Source of the DNA: Caldifarciminota bacterium
GTDB lineage: Bacteria > Hydrothermota > Tepidihabitantia > SM23-42
Reading direction: 5' to 3'
Assembly (NCBI GenBank): GCA_020343455.1
Contig: CP070795.1
Location: 1,088,711 to 1,131,139 of the forward strand
DNA length: 42,429 nt
Both the position numbers and the translations under genes were made by a program. Under the pieces are notes generated by a model, which worked only from the letters and a program-made list of their open reading frames with translations, was not told where the DNA came from and did no database searches. Shown piece after piece: positions 14,157-19,016 of this stretch (its first letter is position 1; every line of letters starts with the position of its first letter).

Positions 14157-14912
14157 TCATTCTTGAATGATGGCTTCGGTCGATTTCTTGAGCGTTTCGA
14201 CGTCTACTTTGGTTACCAATTTGCCTTTGTAGGCGAATGCTATTTTACCCGTCTCTTCGGATACGGCAATGCACAGGGCATCGCTCTGTTCGGCCATTCC
14301 TAGTGCAGCGCGATGCCGCAGCCCGTATGTGACACCGAGATTCGGATTTTCGCTCAGCGGCAGCACACAGCCCGCGGCGACGATCTTGTCTCCCTGGATG
14401 ACGCATGCGCCGTCGTGGAGCGGAGTTTCGGGGAAGAATATCGTTCGGAGCAGTGACGAATTCACCTGTGCATCGATGAGTACCCCGGTATCGATGATGT
14501 CCTTCAAGCCTATATTCTTCTGTAGAACTATGAGCGCACCGATACGGTCCTCCGACATTCGCTTTACAGCATCGATCATCTCATCGATGACTCCCACTTC
14601 TTCCAATTTGAGAAAGAACTTCACCGGCCTCTGACGGCCGATGCGGGCGAGCGCATTTCTGATCTCAGGTTGAAAGACGATCACAAATGCTACTACCCAA
14701 AGAGCAAGGATCGAATTCATGATCCAAGAGAGGGCTTTGAGGTCGAGCCACCTGGATATGAATGAAACCAGGAAGAAGAGGACCAGCCCAACGAGAATCG
14801 ACGTTGCTTTTGTGCCTTTGATGAATCTGAAGAAAGCATAAAGCATGAAACCGACGACTATGATATCTATGATGTCTATTGCTCTGATCGTCAGGAATCC
14901 GAATAACTTCAT
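14157..14912 (-). CDS. cdaA: Diadenylate cyclase CdaA (c-di-AMP synthase)
   Basis: CdaA condenses two ATP into cyclic di-AMP, a messenger controlling potassium, osmotic balance and cell-wall state. The 251-residue protein has three N-terminal membrane helices (about residues 12-90) and a DAC domain with the catalytic DGA motif (167-169) and RHR (199-201). Its ATG overlaps the folP stop (ATGA). A folP-cdaA neighbourhood is seen in other bacteria. TrkH/TrkA-type potassium genes, whose relatives are often c-di-AMP targets, lie elsewhere in this window. The usual CdaR/YbbR partner is absent downstream. Confidence 0.95.
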   Translation of the reverse strand: MKLFGFLTIRAIDIIDIIVVGFMLYAFFRFIKGTKATSILVGLVLFFLVSFISRWLDLKALSWIMNSILALWVVAFVIVFQPEIRNALARIGRQRPVKFFLKLEEVGVIDEMIDAVKRMSEDRIGALIVLQKNIGLKDIIDTGVLIDAQVNSSLLRTIFFPETPLHDGACVIQGDKIVAAGCVLPLSENPNLGVTYGLRHRAALGMAEQSDALCIAVSEETGKIAFAYKGKLVTKVDVETLKKSTEAIIQE

Positions 14913-16119: not shown

Positions 16120-17481
16120 CTACAGGAAATACGAAGCAGGGTTGATGCCATAAAGTTGGGGGTATGTCGGCCGTATTATCTTCACTGTCTTCTCCACGGC
16201 AAGGTCGATCGTGCGTCCATCGAGCTTCTCCTTGCTTCGGTCGACGATTATCTTGACTGACGGCCGGTCGATGGTGCTTGGATTTTGCCGCATCACCACG
16301 GCCACCTCACCGGTGTCGAGTTCGAGGCAGCTGCCTACCGGGTATATGCCGAGCAGTTGAGTAAATACTTTTGCCAATATCGGGTCGAAAAGCCGGTTCT
16401 GATTCGACCAAATCACACGAAGTGCAAAGTGCGGCAGGTATGGGACGGGCTGGTAGCCGCGTGCTGTTGTCATTGCATCGTACGAATCGCAAATACGCAC
16501 GATCTTCGAGAAGAGGGTTGGTTCCTCATCGGATTCTCTTACGGGATATCCCGTACCATCGTAATTCCAGTGATGCTGGTAAGCAACGGTAATGGCGATC
16601 ATCGAGATCTCATCGAGGCCCCGTGTCTTCAATATCTCGCGCACTCCGTAATTGGAGTGCAGTTTCAGGGTCTCCCATTCATCATCCTCCAGTTTCTGTA
16701 TCTTGTTGATGAGATCCCTGGAAATCTCCACCTTGCCGATATCGTGCATTAACCCGGCCGTTCCAAGCCTCGCTAGGTTCTTGCGGTCGAGCCCGATCCT
16801 CTGTCCAAGTGCAAGTGACAGAATGCCGACATTGAGGGAGTGGTTGAACGTGTATTCGTCAAAATTCTTGATCGTCGTGAGGGCAAGAATACCGTATTCG
16901 TCGCGCGATATCGAATCGACGAGGCTGAAGATGACGCGTCGTGAGCTCTTCACATCGACGGGCCTGCCGCTCCATAGATTCTGCATCAGGTTCTTGGTGA
17001 CCTTGAGTGCCTTGAAGTAAGTCCTCTTTGCGACCTGTCCGTCCTCGAACATCTCGTCTTGTTCCTCACCCTTTTTGAGACACTCTACGGTTATGTGCTC
17101 GAATTTCCTATCTGCGCTGTTCTTCTGAAACGATGCTCTATCTTCCTTTAGCATGTTAGCAAATTGGATGATCTCTGCTTGTGTCAGACCGCGGCTGAAG
17201 GATACCGATTTTATACCCAAGTTCTTGAAAAGTGAGTTCATGAACTGAAGATTGGCGTAACTATCGATCTCGTATTTCAATCGCTGTTTGTTGAAGAAGA
17301 TGTAATCACGGTAGCGCACAAACTCAAGACTGGCCATCGTAGAGAAGAGGTCTTGTGTGTATTCAATCAATTTCTGGCCGGTATTGATTACGACATTATT
17401 GTGGATATCGTAGACCTGCACGGCTCTGCACAACGGATACAACAGCCCAATTACCGTCTTTCCTGCGATGTATACGTTCAT
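16120..17481 (-). CDS. HD-GYP phosphodiesterase-like protein with shared N-terminal module
   Basis: A 453-residue protein. Residues 1-130 form a module also found at the start of the adjacent HEAT-repeat protein. Residues 205-350 are an HD-GYP domain: His214, HD at 246-247 (LMHDIGK), His275, HH at 303-304 and DGTGYP at 308-313, then CDSYDAMTT. HD-GYP domains typically hydrolyse cyclic di-GMP. The usual Glu of the HHE segment is Trp here, so activity or nucleotide preference may differ. The C-terminal 100 residues are unassigned. No membrane helix. The ATG overlaps the HEAT gene stop by 4 nt. Confidence 0.9.
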   Translation of the reverse strand: MNVYIAGKTVIGLLYPLCRAVQVYDIHNNVVINTGQKLIEYTQDLFSTMASLEFVRYRDYIFFNKQRLKYEIDSYANLQFMNSLFKNLGIKSVSFSRGLTQAEIIQFANMLKEDRASFQKNSADRKFEHITVECLKKGEEQDEMFEDGQVAKRTYFKALKVTKNLMQNLWSGRPVDVKSSRRVIFSLVDSISRDEYGILALTTIKNFDEYTFNHSLNVGILSLALGQRIGLDRKNLARLGTAGLMHDIGKVEISRDLINKIQKLEDDEWETLKLHSNYGVREILKTRGLDEISMIAITVAYQHHWNYDGTGYPVRESDEEPTLFSKIVRICDSYDAMTTARGYQPVPYLPHFALRVIWSNQNRLFDPILAKVFTQLLGIYPVGSCLELDTGEVAVVMRQNPSTIDRPSVKIIVDRSKEKLDGRTIDLAVEKTVKIIRPTYPQLYGINPASYFL

Positions 17482-19016
17482 GTCGATCTTTCCTTTAGAA
17501 CCGTTTCACACGCGAGTTTAATGTCTCTGTCCCTCTTCTGCGTTCCTAGTTTCAGAACCTCTCGCGATTCGTCGGTATCGATGTGACTCAAGGCAAGGGC
17601 GGCAAGTCTTCGCATTACGCGGTACTTCTTGCGCCCGAACCATTTGCGTTTGTACAGAAGGTTGCGCATCAGCTCCACCATCCCGCTGTCTCTATTCGCG
17701 GTAAGATTGTTAAATACCTCACGCTGTTCGGTGAAATCGAGGTCTAGAAAGTCCCTTCTATTAATGCGCTCCAATAATGCGGTGTAGATTCCCGGGTATT
17801 TGAACTTACCGAGTATGCGCAGCGCTTTGATCCTTACTTCTACCGAGGGATCCGATATGTACTTTGCCGCTAATTCCACATGCTTGACGTCGGATATTGC
17901 GTCGACTATCGCCATTCGTATCCTCTCATCCGAATGCTGTAATAGCGGCTGGAACAACTTATCCATACCTGCCGGCTTCATGATACCAATTATCTGCACG
18001 GCATTTAGCTGGATATCTACATTTTTATGCGTCAAGAATGCGGCAACCGGACCTGGATCATTATCAGCGATGTGGGCGATGCGATGCCTCAATGCATTCA
18101 AGCGATCAGTACGTTCGATAGAAGGTACCAGCGCGATGATATGTGGAATCGATTTCTTCCTGAAAAAACCCAGAAATGCGAGGAATTCGTTGAATCGTTC
18201 GTCCTCAGGCACATTGAGCATTTCTTTGAAACCTTCGATCGCCACCTCGTTTTCAAATCTCCCGATGAAGTCAACGTCAGGGTAATCCTTAAGTTTGTAA
18301 CTTATCCTCCTGGCATTATAGAAATCTTTCATGTTGACGCATGTCTCGAGGATCTCAATCAGTCCATCGATGATCTCCTGTGAGCGTTCGATACGCAGAT
18401 AGTCGTTCAACGTTTTTATCACGATCGGCAGAATCGCCGCTTTCTCTTCGTCGGAGATGCATTTCTTCAAATTCTCAACTTCCCTGTCGTTGAGGTCGGG
18501 AATGATAATGGCATCAATATCTATCTTCTCCTTGAGAAGCAATTGCCTCAATTTTTCGTCATAATCGATCTGTTCAATTGGAACGTCAGGGACTTTGTAG
18601 TCAAGAACTTCCTCTGTTTCAATTACATAAAAAGTCACGTGTGTGAAATTGCATTCCCAGAGGCCAAGCGCAACGTCCCAATCTTTGGATGGCTGGCTGA
18701 TGACGTCTATGAAAAGGAGGAGTTCATCGGATGTCAAGCCGCTTTGGAATCCAATCGAGCGGACGCCGTCTTTGAACAACCGGAACGCGATGCTCATGTC
18801 CATCTCTTCTTCTTTGTAGACATCCCTCTCGGCATAGATCATCTTGAATTTTTCGATCTTGAGTTGAAATTCGTTGTGCTCCTTGAGGAAAGCGGATAGC
18901 TTTTGATAGAAAGGCTCAAAAAAATTCAAAAAAGAGGAATGAATCATGCCGTACATCTGCATGGCTTTGAATGATTTAGTAAGTCCAAGAATTATTTGAT
19001 CGACTTCGTCCTTCAT
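17478..19016 (-). CDS. HEAT-repeat protein with shared N-terminal module
   Basis: A 512-residue soluble protein. Residues 1-130 match the N-terminus of the downstream HD-GYP protein: IxGL, then MQMYGMIH versus VQVYDIH, then LFKDGVRSIGFQSGLTSDEL versus LFKNLGIKSVSFSRGLTQAE. The C-terminal half (about residues 300-510) contains HEAT-like helical pairs (VDIQLNAVQIIGIM, ERIRMAIVDAISDV, VEVRIKALRILGKF), a typical protein-interaction scaffold. ATG 19016 is chosen over an ATG at 19022 and a TTG at 19025 because the -10 box covers 19025-19030, leaving an 8-nt gap. It heads the seven-gene operon. Function unknown; a regulatory partner of the HD-GYP protein is likely. Confidence 0.8.
   Translation of the reverse strand: MKDEVDQIILGLTKSFKAMQMYGMIHSSFLNFFEPFYQKLSAFLKEHNEFQLKIEKFKMIYAERDVYKEEEMDMSIAFRLFKDGVRSIGFQSGLTSDELLLFIDVISQPSKDWDVALGLWECNFTHVTFYVIETEEVLDYKVPDVPIEQIDYDEKLRQLLLKEKIDIDAIIIPDLNDREVENLKKCISDEEKAAILPIVIKTLNDYLRIERSQEIIDGLIEILETCVNMKDFYNARRISYKLKDYPDVDFIGRFENEVAIEGFKEMLNVPEDERFNEFLAFLGFFRKKSIPHIIALVPSIERTDRLNALRHRIAHIADNDPGPVAAFLTHKNVDIQLNAVQIIGIMKPAGMDKLFQPLLQHSDERIRMAIVDAISDVKHVELAAKYISDPSVEVRIKALRILGKFKYPGIYTALLERINRRDFLDLDFTEQREVFNNLTANRDSGMVELMRNLLYKRKWFGRKKYRVMRRLAALALSHIDTDESREVLKLGTQKRDRDIKLACETVLKERST

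Follow-up and report, generated by a model that had tools for sequence, protein, structure and literature searches.

The analysed window comprises 42,429 nucleotides of a Caldifarciminota bacterium (assembly GCA_020343455.1, contig CP070795.1, positions 1,088,711 to 1,131,139), and all coordinates of the gene pair and its neighbours refer to this window. On the minus strand, a gene predicted from its open reading frame and translation to encode a protein of 512 amino acids (17478..19016; PF13646 HEAT_2) lies directly upstream of a gene for a protein of 453 amino acids (16120..17481), hereafter the HEAT side and the HD side. An earlier note, made from the sequence by itself, had described a 4-nt overlap of the two genes and had placed both correctly, including their strand; the stop of the HEAT gene and the start of the HD gene share the tetranucleotide ATGA (17478..17481). 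The HEAT-side protein consists of an N-terminal module (residues ~1–140; 18597..19016, minus strand) and HEAT repeats, for which PF13646 scores 50.2 bits (exceeding the curated cut-off of 27.7) and whose best-scoring portion covers residues ~326–410 (17787..18041, minus strand; Pfam HEAT_2 at 326–380 and HEAT at 385–405). In the HD-side protein, a second copy of the module (residues ~1–140; 17062..17481, minus strand) precedes an HD-GYP domain (residues 209–367; 16381..16857, minus strand), which was recognised by PF13487 HD_5 (67.4 bits, exceeding the curated cut-off of 27.2), by its intact residues, and by alignment to PDB entry 4mcw. Both module copies were delimited by profile alignment and by AlphaFold2 models, and Pfam gave no named domain in the first 190 residues of either protein. 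A conserved C-terminal tail of ~75 residues without a Pfam name follows the HD-GYP domain (16120–16350).

Direct comparison of the two proteins with BLASTP yielded a single block of 30 amino acids (37% identity, E 0.002) with the pattern LFK..G(V/I)(R/K)S(I/V).F..GLT..E. By itself this match is weak, and on its strength two unrelated alpha/beta regions might resemble each other by chance or convergence. Profiles built with 26 orthologues of each protein argue against this reading: with hhalign, HD residues 9–139 aligned to HEAT residues 7–136 over 127 colinear columns (probability 96.2, E 2.2e-9, score 59.2), compared with a top score of 18.6 among 100 column-shuffled decoys, 12.9 for a reversed profile, and 14.2 for the HD module against the remainder of the HEAT protein. 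Structures were predicted with AlphaFold2 from separate alignments (47 HD-side and 56 HEAT-side modules), giving the element order H H E E H E H H E on the HD side (pLDDT 90.5) and H H E E E H E H H E, i.e., one additional strand, on the HEAT side (pLDDT 89.4). This near-identical order also speaks against convergence, as does one combined profile of both module types that recovers both sides across phyla, and a chance resemblance is hardly credible. The comparison thus shows the N-terminal ~130 residues of both proteins to be homologous, with a predicted alpha/beta module as their common unit; since the coordinates could not be superposed, a shared fold is suggested by the predicted element order together with the profile alignment.

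The alignment of residues 1–130 proposed in the earlier note was borne out by these scores, and the structure prediction that it had recommended for each module returned nearly identical element orders, whereas unrelated folds would have counted against the proposal. Its GLT block and the later F.H(V/I)T block are real in both proteins. Its Y-x-x-IH block is present but off by one residue (Y-D-I-H on the HD side, Y-G-M-I-H on the HEAT side); orthologues read YDxNNDVV and YGxxHPSF, respectively, and hhalign pairs N28 with H26. The IxGL motif, the remaining element claimed, lacks conservation between the two families.

For the module sets, A5 excludes 3 of 49 HD-side modules (L088, L099, and L112, which are long), and A7 comprises 45 rows picked from the two sets. 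When 45 module rows were scanned with Pfam and NCBIfam, no family matched more than one row and the single matches were weak, in agreement with the earlier statement that the module carries no known name. Searches of the module models against the PDB gave best E-values of 0.15 and 1.4 with Foldseek and best Z-scores of 3.9 and 3.8 with VIA, and PDB sequences searched with the module profiles contained no convincing chain; a missing PDB match is no proof of a new fold. No paper treating such a pair was found in a literature search for HEAT repeats combined with HD-GYP or HD domains, in which sources were available in part and subscription journals were thinly covered. Assignment to a defence system was rejected, as PADLOC returned weak Cas3-HD matches to P0001 only and none to P0002. 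The recurrence of the two-gene unit in distant bacterial groups, described below, suggests that a widespread and undescribed two-subunit signalling device combines HEAT and HD proteins through a shared domain.

A full-length HEAT-side protein was found in 27 of 61 genomes (the own genome and 60 relatives), and the HD gene lies directly downstream in 26 of them; in the remaining genome (G020) the contig ends. Public genomes were first scanned with peptide patterns of the HEAT-side module, which were biased towards Myxococcota; this gave 58 loci in WOR-3, Myxococcota and other Deltaproteobacteria, Desulfobacterales, Acidobacteria, and one Planctomycetia genome. An HD-side gene was located downstream of 52 of 55 HEAT-side genes (three of these HD genes visible only in translations behind the HEAT gene, and one with a module too diverged to score); the other three comprise a natural fusion of both sides into a protein of 1796 residues (L106), a locus with a broken HD gene, and a HEAT-side gene, itself short, without an HD gene (L093). 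Paired copies were counted with a two-type module profile, which can also find single copies. The counts vary with profile sensitivity (at least two “single” copies, L266 and L267, had an adjacent HD gene) and stem from genomes of which several are incomplete (67.5% completeness for the own genome): among 58 evenly drawn Myxococcota genomes the module occurred in 37, and 124 of 136 copies had a partner on the same strand no more than 3.5 kb away, at a median spacing of 1774 bases; 68 of 79 copies were paired in the 20 genomes from which the first loci came; in Desulfobacterota (59 genomes, module in 28), 46 of 67 copies were paired and 21 of 67 were without a listed partner; and in the own phylum outside the class, 42 of 60 copies were paired among the matches listed. 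The order HEAT side, then HD side was observed in all of 20 further pairs from Desulfobacterota and from the own phylum outside the class. Co-occurrence of the two homologues, which the earlier note had proposed to check, is thus borne out for the pair (26/27 among the relatives, 124/136 in Myxococcota) but not for every module protein: in WOR-3, most genomes of the order also encode HEAT proteins of ~670–740 residues that carry the module and lack an HD partner. A profile search of the own genome returned none of these solo copies.

The tree distance matrices of the HEAT and HD sides of 76 pairs correlate with r 0.911. Partner exchange within genomes gave a mean r of 0.717 and a maximum of 0.906, so that 0 of 2000 exchanges reached the observed value; exchanges were confined to the nine genomes with two or three pairs, which keeps the species signal. 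The test excludes L106, L205, L210–L217, and L219 and presupposes the HEAT-before-HD order, for which a reverse search gave only a tandem duplicate (L089 = L214). The HEAT side and the HD side duplicate together. In a tree of 95 modules from a chosen set of 51 loci (matches of less than 85 profile positions excluded), one split with a support of 0.954 sorts 81 of 84 modules by side, compared with at most 59 for shuffled labels; the exceptions are the HD-side modules of L299–L301, which group with the HEAT side, where solo and tandem modules also fall. As r lies above all exchanges and the split follows the two sides, the two copies are regarded as old paralogues kept as a heterologous pair.

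Outputs and architectures are exchanged around the paired modules in several loci. A Ser/Thr protein kinase domain replaces HD on the HD-side partner in L204 (874–3351 of that locus), HD and kinase occur together in L253, and in L205/L218 the HEAT-side protein bears the kinase while its HD-side partner has DUF4388 plus TPR. Tandem-module proteins are encoded in L210/L219 and L211, the latter being a single protein in which two tandem modules are combined with GGDEF, AAA_16, and HEAT. In L219, both modules are in one HEAT protein. Its gene is flanked on one side by a gene whose beginning resembles the GGDEF portion of L211, and on the other by a gene for a module-less HD protein with GYP, which overlaps the two-module HEAT gene by 4 nt.

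Because the modules are paired and rarely interchanged, and because fusion and tandem forms exist, one HEAT-side and one HD-side module would form a single unit, most simply a heterodimer. That the two genes encode subunits of one signalling complex, in which the paired modules bring the HEAT scaffold to the HD-GYP phosphodiesterase, is the reading we favour, if by a modest measure; the two-part signalling system envisaged in the earlier note gains support from co-duplication, the L106 fusion, and the swapped outputs. The solo HEAT/module proteins indicate that the module can function in the absence of an HD partner and would fit a different arrangement, in which both proteins carry the module to attach to one common small ligand or surface and do not bind each other. 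A joint unit accounts better for the strict adjacency and the co-duplication as well as for the L106 fusion and the tandem modules of L210/L219 and L211, and separate binding of a common ligand is accordingly judged improbable.

The best PDB sequence matches of the HD protein were PmGH (4mcw) and a 3',3'-cGAMP phosphodiesterase (5z7c), with E-values of 5.8e-27 and 1.5e-18. Like HD-GYP phosphodiesterases, the HD protein retains H246-D247, K250, H275, H303-H304, the GYP motif (G311-Y312-P313), and D332, in addition to H214. Of the 8 metal ligands of PmGH, 7 are present (H189, H221, D222, H250, H276, H277, and D305 correspond to H214, H246, D247, H275, H303, H304, and D332), PmGH K225 corresponds to K250, and equivalents of D183 and D308 are found in the alignment. 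Unlike in PmGH, the position of the eighth ligand, E185, is occupied by Tyr210, and by Tyr or Phe in 20 of 20 further pairs; the carboxylate at this position that marks the trinuclear (E/D-T-G) HD-GYP subgroup is thus replaced. PMC4159591 describes D183 as needed in PmGH and suggests that a Y/F subgroup of HD-GYP proteins binds two metals, and Tyr210 places the window protein in that subgroup. A further departure from HD-GYP phosphodiesterases is the motif HHWNYDGTGYP, compared with the consensus HHExxDGxGYP, in which GYP is kept and Glu is changed to Trp. The surroundings of the domain differ as well, with an unnamed N-terminal module where those enzymes have GAF or receiver domains, and with an adjoining HEAT gene that carries a homologous module. 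The HEAT-side protein resembles PF13646 proteins in the repeats of its C-terminal part and differs from them in its N-terminal module and its operon partner with a homologous one. The unconventional HD-GYP protein Bd1817 (PDB 3tm8) matches the HD region (E 5.6e-8) and has an N-terminal part of similar length; the module profiles, for their part, gave no convincing PDB chain, and Bd1817 was not among their listed matches.

Intact HD residues are present in each of the 21 WOR-3 rows, whereas K250 is kept in only 3 of 56 non-WOR-3 rows, mostly from Myxococcota. The notion that a degenerate HD site is the rule and that only WOR-3 keeps the catalytic site arose from the Myxococcota-biased first scan and was overturned by the wider sample, in which K250, HH, and GYP are intact in 17 of 20 pairs; at the position corresponding to D183, however, 7 of the 20 carry Gly, Glu, or Tyr. 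The phosphodiesterase named in the earlier note is hence compatible with the catalytic residues kept in the lineage of the window and in most of the wider sample, but not with their loss in most Myxococcota pairs. The degenerate site in most Myxococcota pairs means that catalysis cannot be the sole conserved function. A pair kept despite degenerate HD residues, in Myxococcota and in some other pairs, and a kinase in place of HD in L204 would be expected if the HD domain bound a ligand or protein as output and the pair were a receptor complex whose conserved function is not catalysis. Retention of the residues in all 21 WOR-3 rows and in 17 of the 20 wider-sample pairs argues against this reading, which we hold to be unlikely, though less so than separate binding of a common ligand.

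The own genome probably has c-di-GMP signalling, since it contains 9 GGDEF and 4 HD_5 matches; a search for PilZ in the own genome gave no match. A different substrate would follow from the neighbourhood, in which a diadenylate cyclase gene, cdaA (14157–14912; TIGR00159, 238.7 bits with a cut-off of 188.8), is located two genes downstream of the pair, after folP. The run HEAT, HD, folP, cdaA, sppA is kept in most, not all, relatives, and the HD protein could accordingly be a c-di-AMP phosphodiesterase that balances CdaA. As folP-cdaA does not adjoin the pair in L045, L056, L058, L059, and L060 and has the reverse orientation in L053 (the contig of L046 is short), a CdaA link was dropped as a general rule. 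The absent or inverted folP-cdaA, the nearest solved relatives being c-di-GMP and cGAMP enzymes, and two DHHA1 proteins of 332 and 287 amino acids in the own genome, which could presumably be c-di-AMP or nanoRNA phosphodiesterases, together make this role very improbable.

An HD-GYP enzyme is commonly regarded as one protein that carries its own sensor domain; here, the regulator seems to be divided between two genes, which duplicate and diverge jointly. In our interpretation, the pair most probably forms a regulated phosphodiesterase for cyclic dinucleotides, with two subunits joined via paired homologous domains. The homology and the genetic linkage are established by the data, whereas the physical complex, the direction of control, the substrate, and the input are inferred. 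In this model, the HEAT-side and HD-side copies are ancient paralogues that diverged while staying together as a pair, and they may bind each other as a pseudo-symmetric heterodimer that perhaps also forms a site for a ligand or partner. The HEAT solenoid would act as a recognition arm, sensing or holding a partner protein and setting the activity of the enzyme, and the HD-GYP domain would be the output, whose substrate in the lineage of the window is most likely a cyclic dinucleotide, either c-di-GMP or 3',3'-cGAMP. In other lineages, the output of the same paired modules would be a degenerate HD domain or a protein kinase, and some modules occur with a GGDEF domain. More tentatively, and with a little under even confidence, the pair may represent an ancient two-subunit machine in several phyla, an obligate heterodimer of paralogous domains on a HEAT scaffold and on an exchangeable output (HD-GYP, degenerate HD, or Ser/Thr kinase, with GGDEF in tandem forms), whose HEAT subunit controls a second-messenger enzyme. 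Should the complex prove real, one system would unite many proteins of myxobacteria, Desulfobacterota, and WOR-3 that family models label only “HEAT repeat” or “HD domain”, and partners and outputs could be tested directly by way of the operon rule.

Further module proteins were observed at individual loci. In L152 (2018–8474, WOR-3), the gene for a third module protein (731 amino acids, HEAT) shares a run with an Hsp20 gene and a pair of class III cyclase genes, of which one has AAA_16. A fourth kind of ~674 amino acids with HEAT and the N-terminal module is present in L153 (3673–5697) and L154 (1842–3863), with no HD partner in the listed neighbourhood. At L089 (5893–8730, a stretch shared with L214), the first pair is directly followed by another copy, whose HD gene is in pieces.
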